A stretch of DNA of 64,000 nucleotides from Candidatus Methanoplasma termitum (lineage in GTDB: Archaea; Thermoplasmatota; Thermoplasmata; Methanomassiliicoccales; Methanomethylophilaceae), in contig NZ_CP010070.1 of the NCBI RefSeq assembly GCF_000800805.1, positions 620,001-684,000 on the forward strand, written 5' to 3'. The notes beneath the pieces were generated by a model. That model did no database searches. It saw only the letters and a list, made by a program, of their open reading frames with translations, and was not told where the DNA came from. A program made the position numbers and the translations under genes. Of the stretch, positions 11,488-22,307 are shown piece by piece; the first letter of the stretch is position 1; every line of letters starts with the position of its first letter.

Positions 11488-14202
11488 TTACTGGGTCCCG
11501 TCGCCGAGTTTGTGGGTCCTGTCCGCATCCTTGCGGTGTTCCACTTCGTTGTACCTGAACCTTTTCTTGTTGTCGGCAAACGTCGTGTCCGCGGGCAAAA
11601 GCTTCTTCATCATCTGCATCATTGCGCTTCCGATACCCATCAGCTGCTTGCTCATTTTTATGCCGAATCTTGTGTTCCCGCATACGAGATGTCCGGGGTT
11701 GATGATATCGCGCGGATCTGCCGAGGTCTTCATTTCCCTCATGTATTGGACGGTTGCCGCATCGTGCACGTTATCCAGGTTCCAAGCGAAGAAAACTCCG
11801 AATCCTGTGGTCCTTCCGCCGTACTCAACGGCTCTGTCCCCCAGATAGAAGTTGAATGCAAAGGCGGCCATTCCCAGCAGGGACTCGTCATCCTTGAAAT
11901 AGTAAGGCATGAACATTACAGTGTTGCGGTCTACGACCACACCTATCACTCCGCCCGCCTCCATCTTCATCTTCTTGAAGCCTTCGTAGCACTCTTTTGT
12001 GAATTTGCCGAATTGCGAAGTAGGAACGATTATCTCAGCAGGTATCTCTCCGACACCGATCTTCCTTGCCCTGAACTCATAGCATCTCTCGTCCCATTCA
12101 TGCTCCGAAATTGCATCGACATTCCTCTTGCCGCCGAATCCCGCTGTTATTGAATCCAACTCTGCCAGATCCCTATCTACAAAGGCCTTGTCGCCCTGCA
12201 GTGTGAGAAGCAGCAGGCTTTGCACATCGGGTGCTTTTATTCCTGCTTTCCTCTGGTTGGCAAAATGAAGCTCGTCCGAGAAAGCTATGTGCAGCGGCTT
12301 TATAGACGGATTGTTAACTATCTTTTCGATCGTTCCGTGCATATCTGCCAATGACGGATAGCTGTACGCCAATGGGTGTATAACTCCCATGGGATAGATC
12401 CTGAGTGTAACTGTCCCGAAGACACATAATGTTCCCTCTGAACCTGCGAACGCTTGATTTAGGTTGTATCCGATACCGTACGATCCCATGTGGTCGTCTC
12501 CGGTCTCCAGCATATCTCCGTTCGATAGGACGACCTCCATGTTCAGTACGTTGTCTTTTGCGGACCCATACTTATAGGAGCCTATTCCCATCCCATTTGT
12601 TGCGATCCATGCTCCGATGGTCGCAGATGGGAAACTTGATGGGTATGAACCGATGATGTAACCTTTCTTCATGCATTTGTCCAGCACTTCTTTCCAGGTG
12701 CATCCCGAACCCACCTTGACATACATTTCTTCGGTGTTTATCTCCATCACTTTGTTCATTTTTGATGCGAGATCGAGGACAATTCCTGCGTTGGCAGGCA
12801 TGCAACCTCCGAGTCCCCATGACGAGTTGCCCCTGGGTACCACGGGTATGCCTTTTTTGTGTGCGATCTTTACTATTTGTGATATGTGGCTTACTGTTGA
12901 CGGCCTTACGACCACATCCGGGATGTTCTTGAATGCCATACCGGCCTCTTTCGGCAACGGAGCAAGGTCCTTGCTGTAAAGCAGGAGGTCCATTCCGTTG
13001 ACGGTCATGTTGTTCTTTCCGACGATGTCCGCAATTTCGGAGAGAACTTCATCAGTTACCTCTCTCTTGAAACTTTTCTTTTCTTCTTCTGCGGGCTTTG
13101 ACGGGGTCCACCTGAATGATTCGCACACGACGGACCTCCCTCCGAACTTTGAGGCGTTGTCCATGAGGGTTTTCTCATCCTGTGACATTACATAGGCGGT
13201 GCTGCGGTCGGCGATTATCCCGTATACCTTGTTGCCGCATGCTTCGACCATCGATTTCCAGTTGTGCAGAGGAATTATCGCTTTGGCGGCCTTCGGGGCT
13301 TTCGGCCCGCATACCACTCTGCATACCTTGCATGCTTCGGCCTTATCCAGTTTTGAAGCTTGGATCTTCTCCATTATCGCATCTATTGACTGTTCTTCCA
13401 AGTCTACCGAGCCTTTTGAACCGTCCAGTACAAAAGCGATCGTCAGATTCTTTGCGCACCATATGATGTTTCGGGGCTTTATGCTTGGGTGTTGAACAAT
13501 CTTCTTGATCGCTTCCTGCATCTTTTCCGGTGATTCGAACTTGAAAGAGAAACGCCTGTTCACGCCTTTCGGAACCAGCTTCAGAGTTACCTCTGTGACA
13601 ATGCCGAGCGTTCCCTCGGAGGCGGCGAACATTTGTGTCAGATTGTATCCCGACATGTAGTATCCGATGTTGTCGTACGCTGTTTCTATTGTCGCCGCGT
13701 TCTCCGTCACAGCCTTAATGTTGACGACGTTGTCCCTGGAGTTACCGTATTTGTACACCCCGTATCCAATCCCGTTGGTGACAGCCCATGCTCCCACTGT
13801 AGAGGACCAGTCAAAGGGATATGATCCCAATGTGAACCCCGCTTCGGAACATGCTCCGGCGAGGGTCTCGAACTTACATCCGGCCCCCACCCTTACAGTC
13901 AATGAGACCGGGTCTATCTTGATTATGCTGTTGATATTGGACAGGTCAACGAATACTACTGAATTGCCGCATTTCGTTCCGTCTATGGCCCAGGATGGGT
14001 TGTTGCTTGAAACAACCTTAACGTTGTTTTTCCTTGCTATTGCGACAATCTTGGAAACATCTTCCGTGCTGCTCGGTGCGACACATGCCTCTGCGCAGTC
14101 GCATTTTTCGCAGACATCGACTTTCTCCACTCCGATCGCCGCACCGATTGCATCGATAACATTTGCGATCGCTTCTGACTTGTTCCCTTTCGCTGAATTC
14201 AT
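11488..14202 (-). CDS. Internally duplicated FAD-linked (GlcD-like) oxidase with N-terminal Cys motif
   Basis: 904 residues, about twice the length of a GlcD/D-lactate dehydrogenase subunit. Two vanillyl-alcohol-oxidase-type FAD domains are fused: roughly 40-390 and 400-870. They share GSYPFDWSSTVGAWAVTNG against GSYPSSFPSATIGAWIATN, YKYGNSRDNV against YKYGSAKDNV, and SEGTLGI against SEGTLCV. Only the second half keeps the PRGNSSWGLGG pyrophosphate loop; the first has SSNNPSWAIDGT and may be degenerate. The N-terminus adds Cys31-x2-Cys34-x-Cys36-x3-Cys40, a possible metal or Fe-S site. Related single-domain dehydrogenases occur beside hdrD in Methanomassiliicoccales, but no hdrD is here. The substrate is unknown (2-hydroxy acids are typical). 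Good Shine-Dalgarno GGAGG before the ATG. Confidence 0.85.
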   Translation of the reverse strand: MNSAKGNKSEAIANVIDAIGAAIGVEKVDVCEKCDCAEACVAPSSTEDVSKIVAIARKNNVKVVSSNNPSWAIDGTKCGNSVVFVDLSNINSIIKIDPVSLTVRVGAGCKFETLAGACSEAGFTLGSYPFDWSSTVGAWAVTNGIGYGVYKYGNSRDNVVNIKAVTENAATIETAYDNIGYYMSGYNLTQMFAASEGTLGIVTEVTLKLVPKGVNRRFSFKFESPEKMQEAIKKIVQHPSIKPRNIIWCAKNLTIAFVLDGSKGSVDLEEQSIDAIMEKIQASKLDKAEACKVCRVVCGPKAPKAAKAIIPLHNWKSMVEACGNKVYGIIADRSTAYVMSQDEKTLMDNASKFGGRSVVCESFRWTPSKPAEEEKKSFKREVTDEVLSEIADIVGKNNMTVNGMDLLLYSKDLAPLPKEAGMAFKNIPDVVVRPSTVSHISQIVKIAHKKGIPVVPRGNSSWGLGGCMPANAGIVLDLASKMNKVMEINTEEMYVKVGSGCTWKEVLDKCMKKGYIIGSYPSSFPSATIGAWIATNGMGIGSYKYGSAKDNVLNMEVVLSNGDMLETGDDHMGSYGIGYNLNQAFAGSEGTLCVFGTVTLRIYPMGVIHPLAYSYPSLADMHGTIEKIVNNPSIKPLHIAFSDELHFANQRKAGIKAPDVQSLLLLTLQGDKAFVDRDLAELDSITAGFGGKRNVDAISEHEWDERCYEFRARKIGVGEIPAEIIVPTSQFGKFTKECYEGFKKMKMEAGGVIGVVVDRNTVMFMPYYFKDDESLLGMAAFAFNFYLGDRAVEYGGRTTGFGVFFAWNLDNVHDAATVQYMREMKTSADPRDIINPGHLVCGNTRFGIKMSKQLMGIGSAMMQMMKKLLPADTTFADNKKRFRYNEVEHRKDADRTHKLGDGTQ

Positions 14203-14301: not shown

Positions 14302-14709
14302 TTATCGCATGTAAAGGGTGAAACACGGGTCTGAAGTGAGTTTTCTCTTCGCCTCTCCGGTCAATCCGAAGAGATGGGTCTGACATTTGCAGTCGGAACA
14401 GCCGAACCCCCTGGCTATTCCTTTTCCGCCGTTTTTCTGCACGACCGCGCACAACCCGCATTCGGGGATACTTTTATCATTTACCACGTACGCCTCCATA
14501 CAACTGCATACTGTTGAAAGATAGTCAATGTGCCAGCGGACCTTCTTCTTTTTTGACATGTGTCTCTCCAGCCTTTGGTCTAGACCGTTCATCGCGCTGC
14601 CGACGTAACAATATGAGCCTTCACTCAGTTCTATAAGACCCAGAGCGCCCACCTCTATCCTTATTTCAGGCAGATCGAATATCAGGATGTATGTTCCTTT
14701 ACGGACCAT
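14302..14709 (-). CDS. GIY-YIG nuclease domain protein (DUF123 family)
   Basis: 135 residues. The archaeal DUF123 variant of the GIY-YIG fold: GSYCYVGSAMNGLDQRLERH carries the GIY...YIG equivalent and the catalytic Arg region, followed by WHIDYL. Cysteines at the C-terminus (CSCMEAY, ECGLCAVV, GCSDCKCQTH) are typical of this family and probably bind metal. The cellular role of DUF123 proteins is not established; nucleic-acid cleavage or repair is assumed. It overlaps mmp7 by 11 bases as the last gene of the MCR-activation operon, probably an operon passenger. Confidence 0.85.
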   Translation of the reverse strand: MVRKGTYILIFDLPEIRIEVGALGLIELSEGSYCYVGSAMNGLDQRLERHMSKKKKVRWHIDYLSTVCSCMEAYVVNDKSIPECGLCAVVQKNGGKGIARGFGCSDCKCQTHLFGLTGEAKRKLTSDPCFTLYMR

Positions 14710-15643
14710 TTGCGCCTGCTTTTTTGAGATCTTCCTGCCTGACCTCGGATCTCGTTTTGACCTTGATTATTATGCTGCTGTCATTGATCTTCGAAGGCGT
14801 CACTTTGCATATCTCGCCTACTTTGCGGCCGTATATCTCCATGTCCTCGATGTTCCTGTGGTGTTCCTCATAACCGATCTTGACCCTGAGACCGTCCAGG
14901 TGGAGGACCACCGGCGCCGGCCTGAGACACATATCCACGGGTTCGTATTCCTCGAGAAGCTTCTTTACCTCGGCCGGGTGTATGAACAGCGGGTCCTCGT
15001 CCAAGAACCTCTTTTTTTCTTCCAGGATCTTGGCCACCCTATCAGTTATATCATCGAGTTTATCCCTTTCCGGAGCGGTCCTCATTCTCGATACTTTTCT
15101 TCCGACGCCGTAGACGATCGCGCTGCACTTGTCGTCAATGCCCTCCGGCTTCGGTCCGCACACCAGAACGACCGGTACCCTGATATCGCTGAACAGATCG
15201 GTTTTCGCTTCGATGCAGGTCTTGAAATTCCCGAGAGAGAATATCGCCGCATCGTACTCATCGATGATCAGTTTCTCTTCGAGGTTTATCTGGGATGTCA
15301 GCTTTCCGCGCCCTCTCGCCAATCCCATTACGACCGTTATCGCACCCATCCTCCTGAGATTCTCGGCTATGTCGCAGATCGGATGCGGCATGTGATGGCG
15401 TCCGAGCGTCGGCCCGACAACGGCTATTTCCGTGCCCGCAAGAGGTACGGTCTTTATTTCCCCCCCTATCTCTTTGCACAATTCCGCAATGGCGGCCTTG
15501 TCCTCTTCGGGGATGGACATTGTAAGGTTCAGAAGCTGAGAGCTTCTCGTTTTCTGGATGACCACGCCTCCCACATCCTCGATCAGTTCTAACAGCTCAT
15601 CGGATCTGTAGATGCCTCCGTCGAACATCAAGACCTCAAACAT
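14699..15643 (-). CDS. mmp7: Methanogenesis marker protein 7
   Basis: 314 residues matching the marker-7 family found in essentially all MCR-bearing archaea. Recognisable segments: the N-terminal MFEVLMFDGGIYRSDELLEL, the Rossmann-like IAVVGPTLGRHHMPHPICD, VVMGLARGRGK, and VLVCGPKPEGIDDKC. Marker 7 has been reported in a complex with McrC, marker 3, marker 17 and AtwA (component A2) that reductively activates F430 in MCR. Its gene overlaps mmp17 by 8 bases in the same order as the rest of the set, consistent with a stoichiometric complex. Confidence 0.93.
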   Translation of the reverse strand: MFEVLMFDGGIYRSDELLELIEDVGGVVIQKTRSSQLLNLTMSIPEEDKAAIAELCKEIGGEIKTVPLAGTEIAVVGPTLGRHHMPHPICDIAENLRRMGAITVVMGLARGRGKLTSQINLEEKLIIDEYDAAIFSLGNFKTCIEAKTDLFSDIRVPVVLVCGPKPEGIDDKCSAIVYGVGRKVSRMRTAPERDKLDDITDRVAKILEEKKRFLDEDPLFIHPAEVKKLLEEYEPVDMCLRPAPVVLHLDGLRVKIGYEEHHRNIEDMEIYGRKVGEICKVTPSKINDSSIIIKVKTRSEVRQEDLKKAGANGP

Positions 15644-16211
15644 CTTCGCCCGCCTCCATCATTTTCTTGTGATACTCGAGACCGTCTGCCAGCATCTCCC
15701 GGGTGAATATCTCTTCGGTCGCCACCACCGTTATGACCGTTCCATCAATGTATGTATGGCGGACCTTGATGCCCTCTGGCATGGTCCTCCAAACGGCCCC
15801 TATCATCTCTTTGAGATATCCTTCGCCTGATGCTATTATTATGTCCTCAATCTCGTTTGCAGATGCATTCTTCACGAATATGTCGAACCTGGTCTGTTGG
15901 TCGACGTTCTCTTTCCCATATTTTGCCCAGAGTTCCCGTTCAATATCCGGTGCATATCTTTCATCTGTTATGGTGATGAATATGCTGTCTCCTTCTGCCC
16001 TTATGTTCGCAACATCCGAGATGGTCTTGTTTGCGGGCTCGGTCTTGAGTCTTATCGAGAATATGAAAAATGGTATGCTTGGCTGCAAAATCAGCAGCGC
16101 CTTCTGAACATGGAATGCCTTTCCGACATCTGACATTATATCTTCAAAAAGGGTCCTGTATGAATCGTTCCCGAACACTTCCTCACTGATTATCTCGATG
16201 TTCATTCGCAC
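15636..16211 (-). CDS. mmp17: Methanogenesis marker protein 17
   Basis: 191 residues, the family length. Soluble alpha/beta protein without catalytic motifs I can name; conserved-looking segments include VFGNDSYRTLFEDIMSDVG, IFVKNASANEIEDIIIASGEG and WRTMPEGIKVRHTYIDGT. Marker 17 is a reported partner of marker 7 and McrC in the ATP-driven MCR activation complex. Three bases separate it from mmp15 upstream and it overlaps mmp7 downstream, so all are co-translated. Confidence 0.92.
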   Translation of the reverse strand: MRMNIEIISEEVFGNDSYRTLFEDIMSDVGKAFHVQKALLILQPSIPFFIFSIRLKTEPANKTISDVANIRAEGDSIFITITDERYAPDIERELWAKYGKENVDQQTRFDIFVKNASANEIEDIIIASGEGYLKEMIGAVWRTMPEGIKVRHTYIDGTVITVVATEEIFTREMLADGLEYHKKMMEAGEDV

Positions 16212-16214
16212 ACC

Positions 16215-17438
16215 TCAGAGGAATCCGGAACTCAGGAGAGCGCCGCCCACGGCACCTATGTATTGTGAATTCGGCGGCACGATCGTTTGTTCACCTACGA
16301 CCTCGCTCACTGCTTTCACCAGTCCGGTATTGAGCGACGTTCCGCCCACCTGTATAACGGGGTGGCGTATATCGATCTCCTGCAGCTGCTGCTCGTAAAC
16401 CTGCTCGGCTACTGAATGGCACGCAGCGGCCGCAACATCCTCGAACCGCTTTCCTTCTCCGAGCATAGTGACAAGCCCCTGTATCCCAAAGACGGAACAA
16501 TATGAATTCATCTTTGCTTTGCGCCAGTCTCCTTTCTCTGCCATTTTTCCAAGATCCTCTATCTTGACCTTCAGCCTGCTTGAGGTCATTTCCAGGAAAC
16601 GTCCGGATGCACCTGCGCAGATGCCTCCCATGGTAAAGTTATCCGGTATCCCGTCCCTGACGGTTATGGCCTTGTTGTCCATTCCTCCTATGTCAAGTAT
16701 GGTCGCCTCTCCTTTCTGCCTGTCCGCCAGCCATACCGCTCCTTTGGAGTTGACGGTTAGCTCCTCCTGTATAAGTTTCGCATTGAAATGCTTACCCAAC
16801 GTGAACCTTCCGTATCCTGTGACCCCCATTGCCTCGATCTGTTTCAGCTTGATGCCGGCCTCTTTCATTGCATTTTCGAGCACCTGTGTGGCGGACTGCA
16901 CCACATCGCCGGACGATGTCCAGTCCTTGCCGATGATCTTATTATCCTGCATGATGACCGCTTTCGTCGTACTTGATCCCGAGTCTATACCCGCAGTGAG
17001 ACCGGTCTGCCTCGCCCTTGCCAGAAGTTCTTTTCTGGAAACGATGGTGACCAATGCCTCCATCCTTGTGAGCAGTTGCGCGGCCTTGAGTCTCTCCGTA
17101 AAAGAGTATGTGACCACAGGCAGCCTGGTGTTCTCCTGTATGAACCTTCTCAGCTCATTCCTTACGAGCGCTGCCTCGGCACACCTGAAGCATGTTGAAA
17201 TGAAGACCGCATCGGCATCATATTTCTCATCTGCGAGCTGCACGGCCCTTGCGATCATGAGCTTCAGCTGGGGGGACTTTGGATTGAATCCGAATCTTTC
17301 CACTGCTGTTTTCACATCGGCATAGGATACATCCGGATAGACCATCTTTCCGCCGACGGATTGCGCCGCCTGTTCGATCTCGGACTGAACACTGCTGTAT
17401 TCCGCACCGCATGATAATTGCGCGATCTTTATCGTCAT
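16215..17438 (-). CDS. mmp15: Methanogenesis marker protein 15 (BadF/HgdC-type ATPase)
   Basis: 407 residues. A methanogen-specific N-terminal domain (about 1-145, with a CFRC motif at 83-86) precedes an acetate/sugar-kinase-fold ATPase of the 2-hydroxyacyl-CoA dehydratase activator type: phosphate-1 motif [11 protein letters not shown] (150-160), [16 protein letters not shown], and the Fe-S ligand segments [11 protein letters not shown] and SYCSVFG that bridge a [4Fe-4S] cluster in HgdC. By analogy it may couple ATP hydrolysis to low-potential electron transfer, which suits MCR activation; direct evidence is not known to me. The stop overlaps mmp17's region closely and the start overlaps mmp5 by 4 bases. 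Confidence 0.93.
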
Positions 17439-17869
17439 TTCTTTCCCTCCAGGAATCGTTTTATCTGACCTATCGTGGCGACCGCTTCCTTTTCATCAGC
17501 GGGATATGTTACTTCTATCGCCGGGATCTTGCGCCTATGGATCAGATGTCTTACCATCTCATTCGAGCGCTCGCATCCGACACATCCGAAATTGAAGGGC
17601 GGATCCAACATTATTATCGCCGCGTCGGCCTGCTCTATGAGCGGCCCCCACAGTGCCAGTCTCCCCCTTATCCCGGAAGGGACCTCGACACCTGCATACT
17701 TCAGACCTGTGACCACATCATCCAACGTAACATTCATTGGAGGCATATCGATCTCGGCTTTGTCTATTCTTTCTTGGAGTGGCATCATCACACCCAGCGG
17801 TTCATGACCGAATCTCTCTACGAGGTCGAACAGGATCAGGCTGTTCGGCGGACTTATGAATACTTTCAT
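17435..17869 (-). CDS. mmp5: Methanogenesis marker protein 5
   Basis: 144 residues, the family's usual size. Contains [26 protein letters not shown]-type N-terminus, [35 protein letters not shown], with a CVGC motif that could bind a metal or cluster, and an IPAIEVTYP strand. Function unknown; its co-occurrence with MCR is the basis of the name. It overlaps both neighbours by 4 bases (ATGA junctions), giving tight translational coupling. Confidence 0.92.
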
Positions 17870-18288
17870 CGGTTTGCCTCACATATCTTTTTGAATTTTT
17901 CAACAGGGAGTTTTTCCTTTTTTTTGGGGATATCGAATTTCTCCCCTCTCTCGCATGCGAGAAGGCCGTGTTTGACCAGATACAGTCCTTCCCATTCAGC
18001 TTCCAGCTGAGCGAATCCGGGTCTGGTGCCGTGATGTGCACGGCACCTTCTCATATCCCCTGCGGGATACGCCCTTGTTTTTGAATAAATGTCAAAGGGG
18101 TGTTTCTCTCTTATCTCGGCAAGGACCTCGCGGACATTTTTCCTCGGCCCTTCTACCACGGACCCGTAGCACGTTTCCTTAGCGGTCACTCCTTTCCCCA
18201 TCGCATGCACCTCCCTGACCAGCTGATCGGGTGTGATCATGGAATCAGGAGATATCATGAATAGCCTGGTCTCTCTTTCCTCGCTCAT
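17866..18288 (-). CDS. mmp6: Methanogenesis marker protein 6
   Basis: 140 residues. Family features: FMISPDSMITPDQLVREVHAMG, KETCYGSVVEGP, DIYSKTRAYPAGDMRRCRAHHGTRPGFAQLEAEW. The conserved Cys/His-rich RRCRAHHG segment might bind a metal. Biochemical role unknown; genes for markers 3, 5 and 6 are typically neighbours, as here. Four-base overlaps with mmp3 and mmp5. Confidence 0.92.
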   Translation of the reverse strand: MSEERETRLFMISPDSMITPDQLVREVHAMGKGVTAKETCYGSVVEGPRKNVREVLAEIREKHPFDIYSKTRAYPAGDMRRCRAHHGTRPGFAQLEAEWEGLYLVKHGLLACERGEKFDIPKKKEKLPVEKFKKICEANR

Positions 18289-19799
18289 TTTCTCTCCTCT
18301 GTAATATAAATCGTTTGTTCTTCTTCTACATCGCCGAGCCTCTTTAGGTCGTCGATGAACTTACCGATAATGTTCGTCCCATACGGCTCTTCTCCGGTGG
18401 GACCGTATTGTTTGCTGTCCTCAAGCCTTATACCGATAAGACCGTGGTGCGGTCTGGATTGGTTTGTTATGCCGATATCGCCTTTTTTGCACGTCTTGAA
18501 CGGCTTCTCTTGGGGATACAGGTTCTTCGATCTGTCCTCATCCCCGTAGAATGTTATCATCGGCATGCCGGGGAATGCGAACTGTGTTTTCAACGAACCT
18601 ATCGGTTTGTGGCTCAGGCCGGTCATCTTTTTGAAGTAGTGTACATCCGCCGCATTCGTTCCGTCAAGCTGTATCTTAAAGACCTTCCCATTCGGAACGC
18701 CCAGCGTTTCTATTTCGTTGCTGGCGATAGCCTTCAGCGTCATTTCCGGTGATTGTTCGACTATTATCGCTTCGTCTGCCACGTCGCCGACCCTTTTCTG
18801 CTTCAATCCGAGTTTTGATAGGAATTTCTCCCCGTCTGATTGGGTCATTCCGACTGACATTATCCTTGCCGGTTCGGTCACAAGGGTTATCTTCTCGCCT
18901 TTTTTCGCTTGTGATACTATGCCGAATCCTCTTTCCACCGTTCCCGCGCTGTTGTGTGCAGGACTGGTCTGCCTTCTTTCTTTGTATATAAGGATGCGAC
19001 CTGCACCTAACCCGGTGTTCCTGACGGCGACGCTTCCGGCATCTCTTGTCTGGCTGTACTCGACTGGCATTTCCACATCGAGTTCCTCGCTGCAGCCAAC
19101 GGCTGTGCCCATGGACTCGGTTATACTCAAATGGCCTTTTGCTCCCGATATCAATATCTGTTCGGCTGCCGCAGGTGACCTCTCGTCCAATCTTATAAAC
19201 ATGTTCGTATCGATGGAATATCCTTCATCCAGCTTGTATCCGAGATCCTTGGTCACGATGATCGTTTTATTACTGGATTCTGAGACAACGGGCCTGACAT
19301 CGAGAAGTTTGTCACCTTCGGCTGAGAGATCCAAGATGTGCCTTCCGAGAGTTATCCTTCCTATTTTCCCGATGCTCGCACCGTATGATCTGGTGTGCTC
19401 TTTCTTTGCTATCATGATATATGTGGAGTGGTTATCGAAACCGCCCAGTGTGAAGAAACAGTCATATTTGCTGTAGTGCCTGTTTTCCCTGTCGATGGGG
19501 ATGTCCGTCTTGAACGATCCGAATGCTATTATCTCCTTCGTCAGCCATCTGGCCGTAGAGCCTTTTACCGACTCTGTTATCGATCTGAACAGCTTTGCGC
19601 CGTCGGAATCCTCAAGCCGCAGCACCATCGTACCGTTAGAAGTGACAAGTTCGAATTCGTTCGTTTCCCCGATAAGCTTCTCGGTTGAAAGATGGATTGA
19701 AATCAGCGACCCCGGCTCATATATCTCGCCTTTTACAGCTTCCTTCAGGGTTGCGCCTTTTGCAACCTCTTTCTCTTTTCCGTTGACGGTGATCCTCAT
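18285..19799 (-). CDS. mmp3: Methanogenesis marker protein 3 (UPF0288)
   Basis: 504 residues. An N-terminal ubiquitin-like/ThiS-like domain (MRITVNGKEKEVAKGATLKEA) is followed by beta-rich domains, including the GAKGHLSITESMGTAVGCSEEL and GIVSQAKKGEKITLVTEPARIMSVGMTQSDGE regions typical of the family, and a C-terminal part with SRPHHGLIGIRLED and FGPTGE-like (YGPTGEEPYGTN) motifs. Marker 3 has been reported as a component of the McrC/A2 activation complex. One base separates it from mcrC. Confidence 0.93.
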   Translation of the reverse strand: MRITVNGKEKEVAKGATLKEAVKGEIYEPGSLISIHLSTEKLIGETNEFELVTSNGTMVLRLEDSDGAKLFRSITESVKGSTARWLTKEIIAFGSFKTDIPIDRENRHYSKYDCFFTLGGFDNHSTYIMIAKKEHTRSYGASIGKIGRITLGRHILDLSAEGDKLLDVRPVVSESSNKTIIVTKDLGYKLDEGYSIDTNMFIRLDERSPAAAEQILISGAKGHLSITESMGTAVGCSEELDVEMPVEYSQTRDAGSVAVRNTGLGAGRILIYKERRQTSPAHNSAGTVERGFGIVSQAKKGEKITLVTEPARIMSVGMTQSDGEKFLSKLGLKQKRVGDVADEAIIVEQSPEMTLKAIASNEIETLGVPNGKVFKIQLDGTNAADVHYFKKMTGLSHKPIGSLKTQFAFPGMPMITFYGDEDRSKNLYPQEKPFKTCKKGDIGITNQSRPHHGLIGIRLEDSKQYGPTGEEPYGTNIIGKFIDDLKRLGDVEEEQTIYITEERK

Positions 19800-19800
19800 C

Positions 19801-20421
19801 TCAGTCGCCTCCGCGCGGCGGCAGGACCTGCTGCACCTTCGAAACTATCTCATCCAGTTTATCCTGCGGTGCGGTAACTCCTCTTATCACTCCGGTGATG
19901 ATCTCTTTTATCTCGCCGCGTGTGTTGATGTCCTCGTCGGCCGGCATTACTCTCACGGTCTTAACGCCGATCGCCGCAAAGTCCTCAAAATCCACCGGTG
20001 CCTGAGCTACCACTATTGCTGGAATGTCAACATTTCTCAATATGAGTCTGGCTTTGTAGATTATATGCTGCCTGACGTTCCCGAGGTGGATTATGGCGAC
20101 CTTGTACTGCTGTATCCTTTCGACCTCTATCGGATCCAGCCCGAAATATGTGGATGTGGTCATGTCCGGCGCGTCTGAAGGCACCCCTGACCCGGCGTTC
20201 ACAACAAGCACGCTGGTATCGATCCCTTCTTCTCTCAAAGCATATGTTATCTCGCAGACCGGTTTCGTTATATGTCTTCTTCCCGGGCCCATTGCGATGA
20301 CTATGACGTCCATACCGCTCTCTGATATTGTTGCTCTCGCGGCGAGCCCTCCGCCCACTCCCATTCCCATTGATTCTCTGCATTCCACAAAGCTCAGGTG
20401 TCTGCCGATCTGCTTTTTCAT
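19801..20421 (-). CDS. mcrC: MCR operon protein C
   Basis: 206 residues. McrC signature elements are visible: [66 protein letters not shown], and a C-terminal helical tail. In many methanogens mcrC lies inside mcrBDCGA; here, as in several lineages, it is located with the activation factors instead. It is an organising subunit of the MCR activation complex. Marker 7 in this operon shares the GPxxGRHHMPHPICDIAENLR type of motif ([19 protein letters not shown] here), so the two proteins look homologous. Confidence 0.95.
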
Positions 20422-20430
20422 CGCACGGCC

Positions 20431-22014
20431 TCACTCCAACTTATTGAATTCAGAAATTATCTTTTCCGGCGTCCCGACATCCAATACCTTACCGTTTGCC
20501 ATGAATGCCGCGCGGTCGCAGCAGTTAAGGATGAAGTCCATATCATGGCTTACAACAATGAATGTTTCGTCGAGGTCGTCCCTTGCTTTGAGGACGGATT
20601 TTGCTATTATCACCTTAGTTATAGGATCCATTGTTCCGGTGGGTTCGTCGAGGATTATTATCTTCGGTTCTTTGATAAGCACCTGTGCGAAAGCGATCCT
20701 CTGACATTCTCCCACACTCAGAGAATCGGGATATGAATAGAGCGTCTTCTCTATGTCGTTCTTCGGGAATCCTACGCTGAGGAGTACCTGTATGGCTTTC
20801 ATTTTTGCAAGTTCGGCGGGCATCTTCATCCCTATCGATGTGGAGAGGTTCTGAAGAACTGTGTCGAAAGGATACAGCGAATACTCTTGGTGAAGGAATC
20901 CGATATACGGGGTCGCCCTCCCTTTGCCGGAGAACCCCTCCTCAGACATGTTCACCCAATCCTCGCCGATCCTTATCATCACTTTGCCTGATGTGACCGG
21001 CGTCATTCCCGCTATCATCCTGGATGTTGTCGTCTTTCCTGCGCCGGACAGCCCCACCATGGCAAAGACCTCTCTTTCTTTTATTTCAAGTGTCACGCCG
21101 TCGACTGCCTTCACCACTCCCCTTGAAACGGAGAAATAATGTTTTCTCGCATCTTCGAGCATTATCAGCGGCTTTCCGGCCTCCTTGCCCGCCTCTTTCT
21201 CGAAGTGGTAGTCTGCCATGAATTTTTCTGTTACCTCTTTGGGGTCGCCCTCCATAACAACATTGCCTGCGTCCAGCCATACCGCATAGTCGGACATCTC
21301 CTCCACGGCCTCAGGCCAGTGTGAGGCAAGGATCATGCAGATCTTGTGCTCTCTCACATACTCGACAAGTCTTTTGTGAATGAGTGCGGATGTGTGCGGG
21401 TCCAACGTTCCCGTAGGCTCGTCCGCAAGGAAGAACAGCGGCTCTTTTGCAAGCTGTCTCGCCATCACGACCCGCTGCTTTTCCCCTCCGGACAGATCCC
21501 TTGCGATGTGTGTTGCACGGTGTGTCATATTAACAAACTCCAGAACGCTGACGGCTTTATCGACGCGTTTTGGATCGTTCGGGTCGAGGACCTCTAGGAT
21601 ATTCTCAATGACGGATTTGTCTCCGAAAAGTGCGAATGTCCTCTGTATCATTATTGCGATCCGTCCCTTCAGCTCTTGCCTTACGGGGTCGTACTCTTTC
21701 AGGCCCCAGTAGTCAATATCCTCTTTTTTTGATTCAGCACCGCATTTTGAGCATTTGACGCCCGGAAACGGGAGATCCATATTGCCGCATTTGGGACAGC
21801 GGTTCACATGGTAGATCAAACGACCGGAGTCCGGGCCGTAGCCCTCACTGCCTCTTATCATATGGATAAGAACACTCTTCCCGGCAGCACTCTTACCGAT
21901 CAATCCCAATGTTTTTCCTGTTGAAATCTTTGCACTAACATTTTTCAGGACCACTCTTCCGTTAAAAGATTTGGTCACATTCTCTATGGTCAGAAGATCG
22001 ACCGGCTCGTCCAT
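20431..22014 (-). CDS. atwA: MCR activation component A2, double ABC ATPase
   Basis: 527 residues from ATG 22014; the frame extends upstream to 22122 but that part lies before the promoter. Twin ABC cassettes: Walker A GKSAAGKS (40-47) and [11 protein letters not shown], signatures LSGGEKQR and LSVGECQR, Walker [11 protein letters not shown] and [11 protein letters not shown] zinc ribbon (Cys73, Cys76, Cys88, Cys91) is inserted in the first cassette, a hallmark of component A2. No membrane partner: A2 is a soluble ATPase that drives reductive activation of F430 in MCR. First gene of the nine-gene operon; a TATA box 24 bases upstream implies a leaderless or near-leaderless transcript. Confidence 0.95.
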
Positions 22015-22037
22015 GAGTATGCAAAGTATCCAACAGA

Positions 22038-22048
22038 TATAAAATATA
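22038..22048 (-). promoter_or_regulatory. TATA box of the MCR-activation operon
   Basis: TATATTTTATA on the minus strand, centred about 29 bases before the atwA ATG at 22014. The 22049-22215 stretch between it and the divergent promoter shows no further gene. Confidence 0.6.
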
Positions 22049-22307
22049 GGAACAAACAAAATATCGCATACCCGAATATTGATGGCTTTTCGGAGACTTT
22101 GAACAAAATTGGCCCTTAACACCGCTGATCCCGATGCATGGATCCGGAAACTATGCCTTCAAAAATCAGATGAAAAATTGTGCCGCGGATGACGGCTGTG
22201 TGTTACGAGATCGAGTGTTATTATAAGCGACGGCGGACGGATCTCCGATGAAAAATGCTCTTCTGTGTTGCGTTACCTTTTTTAGATTGGATGCCCTATA
22301 TATCCAC

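Follow-up and report, generated by a model that had tools for sequence, protein, structure and literature searches.

In this study, the window is a stretch of 64,000 nucleotides of the Candidatus Methanoplasma termitum genome, which is a single contig of 1,488,669 bases. The open reading frame at 11488-14202 on its minus strand is a real gene, and its 904-residue product consists of two GlcD-like halves that are homologous to each other (Table 1). Pfam recognised two FAD_binding_4 stretches (1.4e-67; best 428-567) and a single FAD-oxidase_C stretch (613-838), and in a family search of the genome both FAD domains were above the cut-off, with 139.7 and 97.5 bits. The AF2 model of the whole protein had a pLDDT of 86.4 and a pTM of 0.89, and that of the N half alone had a pLDDT of 86.6. 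In the fold search, the models of the C half and the N half matched D-lactate dehydrogenases with Z scores of 37.1 (2.3 A over 443 residues) and 31.0 (2.8 A over 343 residues), respectively; the matches listed for both halves were FAD proteins and are uninformative on function. The fused double GlcD-like protein read from the letters by the first-pass annotation was therefore borne out by the reading frame, Pfam and the modelled folds of both halves.

Table 1. Features of the double flavoprotein gene and its surroundings (positions in the window).
Feature	Position	Strand	Remark
Double GlcD-like flavoprotein gene, 904 aa	11488..14202	-	ORF, Pfam, AF2 model
N half, residues 1-371	13090..14202	-	Degenerate GlcD-like domain, faster-diverging than C half
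C half, residues 372-904	11491..13089	-	FAD-competent; orthologue of the order's single-domain protein
FAD pyrophosphate loop PRGNSSWGLGG, residues 456-466 (C half)	12805..12837	-	Intact
N-half loop, residues 65-75	13978..14010	-	Degenerate; reads SSNNPSWAIDG
Helix 852-868	11599..11649	-	Hydrophobic across the family; within C-terminal extension
Site of lost GHxGDGNxH metal motif, residues 754-762	11917..11943	-	No His at 755 or 762 in 69/69 aligned proteins
Site of lost EHG motif, residues 795-805	11788..11820	-	Now GGRTTGFGVFF
Cys31/34/36/40 stretch	14083..14112	-	C36 unique; C31/C34/C40 mostly kept within genus only
Second Cys trio C291/C294/C298, N half	13309..13332	-	Genus: 14, 15 and 15 of 15
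Upstream MCR-activation/marker cluster: A2, mcrC, mmp3, mmp6, mmp5, mmp15, mmp17, mmp7, DUF123	14302..22122	-	

The first-pass annotation had also claimed that the second half keeps the pyrophosphate loop and that the first has lost it, and both statements stand, SSNNPSWAIDG being the N-half equivalent. The loop was altered in the N halves compared and, in alignment A3, was shortened or deleted in the 19 sequences of genera g9 and g7, while the core ETGYDxIGYYMSGYNLTQ was conserved in the same alignment. A changed loop beside a conserved core is in keeping with a structural role on which selection still acts. Within the genus, identity to the window protein was 41-66% for the N half versus 68-80% for the C half.

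The residues of the GHxGDGNxH and EHG motifs have metal-binding and catalytic roles, as known from the structures of D-LDH and D2HGDH. Of the 73 references listed, duplicates and partial sequences were excluded, and alignments A1 and A2 comprised 68 plus P0001 and 29, respectively. None of the 69 aligned proteins of the order had a histidine at residue 755 or 762, and GHxxDxNxH was likewise found in 0/69. In the outside relatives compared on the motif alignment, the metal histidines were absent as well. They were kept in all seven canonical GlcDs of the order that were compared, one of which is the separate canonical GlcD of the window genome itself (L034 8542-9975). The letters EHG occurred in the last 260 residues of 4/69 proteins (L006, L087, L091 and L092); in L087 and L091 they stand immediately before GGR, away from the aligned place of the motif. 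At the old motif sites there are new conserved residues, D758 and GGRxxG, and HEWxERCYEFR is also conserved. In a scan of contigs, most of the matches listed were about 30% identical and only the best were used; among these matches, the regular expressions HxGDxNxH and EHG hit 51/80 and 58/80, respectively, and these patterns are too strict for counting losses.

Compared with canonical GlcD or D-lactate dehydrogenase (TIGR00387; 8jde, 7qh2_C, 9qit), the C half has the same FAD_binding_4 and FAD-oxidase_C fold (Z 35-37). In contrast, the window protein lacks the metal histidines, has a GlcD equivalog score (TIGR00387) of 259.1 bits, far below the cut-off of 567.9, and carries an extra C-terminal extension with a helix. 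Both domains of a GlcD or D-2-hydroxyacid dehydrogenase are thus present, but neither the metal and catalytic residues nor the equivalog score agree with membership. The extension is common to the clade and missing from the compared canonical GlcDs, six of seven of which end 10-29 residues from the last NPG on; the seventh has no NPG. Since the metal histidines are lost, the C half, judged from its residues, is no GlcD-type oxidase. The earlier division into one catalytic and one structural or modified half therefore holds insofar as there is one FAD-competent half and one modified half, but the FAD half does not have the metal histidines that a GlcD-type oxidase has.

A match to the protein was found in 144 of the 147 genomes of the order Methanomassiliicoccales at E <= 0.001 and in 137 at E <= 1e-70; the remaining seven had weaker matches only, which may be paralogues. 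Among the 74 good-quality genomes of the order, one (G137) had a weak match only. Fifty-nine neighbourhoods were hand-picked from these genomes for genus spread and length of contig. The double form was full-length in 26 of them, besides the window protein: all 6 of genus g1, 3 in g6, 10 in g9 and 7 of the 12 in g7. The other sampled loci encoded singles of 523-561 aa, except L065, a broken double, and L063, which is cut by the contig start and could be of either form; both were counted as single among the 59.

The trees were built from hand-picked inputs of 84 FAD sequences and 26 HdrD sequences. In the tree of 84 sequences, the N halves of the order formed one clade (UFBoot 100) nested in the family of the window protein, with values of 86 and 90 at the joining nodes, and long branches leave the exact joining point uncertain. 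By this nesting, the N half is an internal duplicate that arose in one family, and the double form would later have been lost in g14, g3 and part of g7. Four loci of non-methanogens also have the double form, with a degenerate N half beside HdrD in genomes without an mcrA match (L113 5158-7974, L114 7814-10630, L115 9137-11884, L116 6016-8463). Their N halves cluster apart (UFBoot 94), so the double form evolved more than once. The fused form had been called unfamiliar; the fusion is common in the sampled order. No characterisation of it, and no paper on the fusion or on the position of the gene behind its cluster, emerged from the literature searched.

In the GlcDEF glycolate oxidase, GlcE is a short paralogue of GlcD, and there is an HdrD-like Fe-S partner. 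The window protein is similar in that a short GlcD-like domain accompanies a full one, and the GlcE model NF008439 fitted best at residues 54-274. However, this model scored 109.2 bits on the whole protein against a cut-off of 284, and the tree derives the N half from the C half by duplication inside a single family. On this score and this placement, the idea that the N half is a GlcE orthologue was rejected.

A CCG-domain search of the genome found no hdrD-type gene inside the window; on the contig, HdrD1 (G000:C1:1433632-1434831) is at a distance of about 0.8 Mb and a second HdrD at about 0.59 Mb. The remark of the first-pass annotation that no hdrD is nearby holds for the locus, but the trees and the co-occurrence described below point to the unlinked HdrD1 as partner. 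Its statement that GlcD-like proteins of this order occur near hdrD applies to canonical GlcD at two of eight canonical loci (L150, L151) and does not apply to the window genome.

A profile of the single-domain proteins was run on 389 genomes of the phylum, a match of 450 bits or more being taken as strong, and strong relatives were found in 12 genomes outside the order. Eighteen outside loci were taken from 14 genomes, and HdrD-type genes were called by blastp to HdrD1. Such a gene was adjacent at 10/18 loci and fused at 2/18; four had no HdrD match in the stretch examined (L106, L107, L110, L111), and two were cut by contig ends (L112, L117). GlcD-like and HdrD-like domains stand in one chain at L118 7974-10685 and L119 9308-12856. 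In G179, genes for a cytochrome b561 and a multihaem cytochrome c adjoin the flavoprotein-HdrD pair, and in G219 a cytochrome b561-type gene, with a match below the Pfam cut-off, lies beside it. Among the matches listed, a relative from Bathyarchaeia (Ca. Hecatella, L172) adjoins an HdrD-type gene and showed neither motif. The FAD tree placed the order as sister to o102_G179a, the copy of G179 (UFBoot 100), and the HdrD tree placed HdrD1 of the order as sister to h102, which adjoins this same copy (UFBoot 100). The flavoprotein thus shares ancestry with HdrD-adjacent relatives but is not adjacent to hdrD in the order. The link to HdrD-type chemistry made in the first-pass annotation is supported by these relatives and by the matching trees.

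HdrD1 was found at E <= 1e-75 in 62 of the 389 phylum genomes, of which 55 belong to the order and 7 do not, and all of these 7 belong to the 12 outside genomes in which the flavoprotein was strongly matched; the genomes share ancestry, and such counts overstate independence. In G363 and G479, the two genes were on different contigs. The other 5/12 outside flavoprotein genomes had no HdrD1 at this threshold, which counts against a partnership with HdrD. In the same searches within the order, G058 had no HdrD1, and G120 and G137 had no strong flavoprotein match. In the full search of the order, HdrD1 was matched in 145/147 genomes at E <= 1e-60 and in 133/147 at E <= 1e-80. The match of 12 genomes was at E > 1e-80 only and may be the HdrD2 paralogue; one of them, G131, had a 58%-identical fragment, and the good-quality genomes G058 and G008 are in this weaker class yet have the flavoprotein. 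The partial distance correlation over 22 genomes was highest for GlcD2-HdrD1 among 15 protein pairs (0.445), with mmp3-GlcD2 not far below (0.372), and GlcD2-HdrD1 was the top pair in 252/500 subsamples. This correlation is modest and only suggestive.

The intact FAD loop without the metal histidines, the HdrD-adjacent relatives and the matching FAD and HdrD trees lead us to propose that a GlcD-HdrD gene pair gave rise to the protein, which would serve an HdrD-type heterodisulfide reductase as its FAD electron-transfer subunit; we put this at about an even chance. By sequence, HdrD1 of the order goes back to the HdrD of that pair, and the two genes are now unlinked. A GlcD-like flavoprotein linked with HdrD, as proposed here, has also been put forward for Methanomethylicia, Korarchaeia and Bathyarchaeia (PMC6783470, PMC10667645, PMC8407382). 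In contrast to that pair, here the pair is split, the gene stands behind an MCR-activation cluster, there is no hydroxyacid active site, and the protein is doubled in one family.

These methanogens conserve energy without cytochromes. In the HdrDE membrane heterodisulfide reductase, the task proposed here, electron delivery to HdrD, belongs to a cytochrome b subunit rather than a flavoprotein. On the most economical view, the flavoprotein has given up hydroxyacid oxidation while still handing electrons to HdrD. We propose that in the cell it binds HdrD1 and passes electrons through its FAD, that these electrons would come from an Fpo-like complex supplied by ferredoxin, either straight from the complex or through a lipid carrier, and that the flavoprotein would thereby do the job of the cytochrome HdrE elsewhere and allow CoM-S-S-CoB to be reduced. 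As a duplicate without the FAD loop, the N half would probably make a single-chain pseudo-dimer as a structural or docking half, and the siting beside MCR-activation genes would have the gene expressed along with the system from which the heterodisulfide comes. The binding, the source of the electrons and the direction of transfer are what we infer. Two papers state that the order has no HdrE and describe the route from Fpo to HdrD as unresolved (PMC4153887; PMC7374477), and the models presented in one of them let Fpo contact HdrD directly, with no flavoprotein (PMC7374477, citing Lang 2015). The flavoprotein is a candidate for the step that connects the Fpo-like complex with HdrD in HdrE-less methanogens. 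Conserved across the order and sharing ancestry with HdrD1, it gives a named gene for testing this gap. In its fullest form, the proposal is that the flavoprotein supplies what the energy-conserving HdrD system of Methanomassiliicoccales lacks, an electron-delivery subunit, standing in for HdrE to join the headless Fpo-like complex to HdrD1 and being co-expressed with MCR activation; that one family made it a single-chain pseudo-dimer with an FAD-free half; and that non-methanogenic Thermoplasmatota evolved the double architecture separately. We hold this whole picture tentatively, as possible rather than probable.

The constant neighbours of the gene are MCR-activation genes and neither hdrD nor fpo, which, together with the unlinked HdrD1 of the order, speaks against the HdrD reading. 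The clustered marker genes have been described, and Table 5 of that paper, in the part available, has no entry named FAD protein or GlcD (Borrel et al. 2014, PMC4153887). The usual order of the cluster, listed in Table 1, leads from A2 to DUF123 and then to the flavoprotein gene; at some loci this series is cut or interrupted by additional genes, and in the window the scores of mmp6 and mmp7 are just below their NCBIfam cut-offs. In the sampled loci, mmp7 was upstream on the same strand in 57/59 and DUF123 in 56/59, so that at 57/59 the gene either belongs to the marker cluster or follows it directly; in the two loci without mmp7, the contigs end 1 and 1,557 bases upstream. The gap to DUF123 was mostly <200 bp in the window's family f1 (exceptions 627 to 1,255 bp), 113 bp in the single f4 locus and 355-2,897 bp in f2, f3, f5 and f6. 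Given these lengths, co-transcription with the cluster is likely only where the gap is short, and not in f2, f3, f5 and f6. At three loci of deeper families, mmp7 and DUF123 are separated by a gene of the NADPH-dependent FMN reductase type (L085 11650-12207, L089 7048-7605, L080 3565-4134).

The protein might accordingly be an electron donor or assembly factor for the reductive activation of MCR (Ni(II) to Ni(I) F430), together with A2, McrC, Mmp3, Mmp7 and Mmp17. The constant place downstream of mmp7, the short gaps in the window's family, the FMN-reductase-type gene within the cluster and the mmp3-GlcD2 correlation all agree with this role. A paper on the activation complex, in the text available, presumes a need for additional Mmp proteins and names ferredoxin as a possible physiological donor, while FAD and flavo- are absent from its main text as available (PMC12176620). 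The long gaps of the deeper families argue against such a role, and so does the wider distribution: all 14 of the genomes outside the order that carry relatives had no match to mcrA or MCR_C, although 5 of the 14 are <90% complete or >5% contaminated. The gene is therefore not confined to genomes with MCR, and the older role of the clade seems to be independent of it. The neighbourhood favours a role in MCR activation and the wider distribution does not, and we consider this role, the chief alternative, rather unlikely.

A substrate-using flavoenzyme with changed chemistry in the old active site, either a VAO-type oxidation or a reaction on an unknown small molecule, seems to us unlikely and somewhat more doubtful still. 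The fold and the FAD loop are intact, the residues newly conserved at the old motif sites and HEWxERCYEFR could belong to such an enzyme, and VAO-family structures were the next best fold matches (Z about 29). The pairing and co-inheritance with HdrD speak against it, and no conserved neighbour from a substrate pathway was noticed, the neighbours having been labelled solely by similarity to window proteins.

The first-pass annotation had suggested that the N-terminal cysteines, read as CxxCxCxxxC, could carry an Fe-S cluster for relaying electrons. Among the 15 genus sequences of alignment A3, C31, C34, C36 and C40 were present in 14, 14, 1 and 13, respectively, and in the 22 sequences of other genera in 5, 1, 0 and 5. 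The second trio, C291, C294 and C298, is at least as well conserved within the genus (14, 15 and 15) and was present in 0, 0 and 6 of the 22 sequences of other genera. Orthologues thus do not conserve the motif, which is the refutation that the first-pass annotation had itself named, and as a general Fe-S motif it was rejected. Each of six cysteines (31, 34, 40, 291, 294 and 298) recurs in 13-15 of the 15 genus sequences, and together they could form a possible metal site at genus level; nevertheless, with C36 not conserved, the cysteine set absent from fused forms of other genera and the whole N half absent from the single-domain orthologues, we regard an Fe-S relay in this half as very improbable.

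An ordinary D-lactate or glycolate oxidase feeding HdrD, as proposed for HdrD/GlcD elsewhere, would agree with the Pfam and GlcD profile matches and with the lactate coupling put forward in the accessible part of a published study (PMC10667645), but it was rejected as highly improbable because both histidines of the metal motif are lost from the aligned proteins and the window genome keeps a separate canonical GlcD that has them. Annotation of this gene as a lactate or glycolate oxidase would mislead, and a case for lactate-driven methanogenesis should not rest on it.

Some observations concern the HdrD proteins and other carriers. HdrD1 of the window genome (L094 610-2376) has a C-terminal extension of roughly 180 residues, and the length of the HdrD1 open frames varies widely across genera. 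At L108 8181-8612, a gene for a glycine-cleavage-H-like protein (lipoyl carrier) was found by Pfam near a GlcD-like gene, with similar-looking open reading frames in L109, L110 and L169, and a disulfide substrate such as lipoamide is conceivable for the GlcD-like protein there. The second HdrD of the window genome (L098 1-1827, about G000:C1:42-44 kb) is fused to a lactate-racemase-like LarA_C domain and may serve the canonical GlcD of the genome in lactate use.
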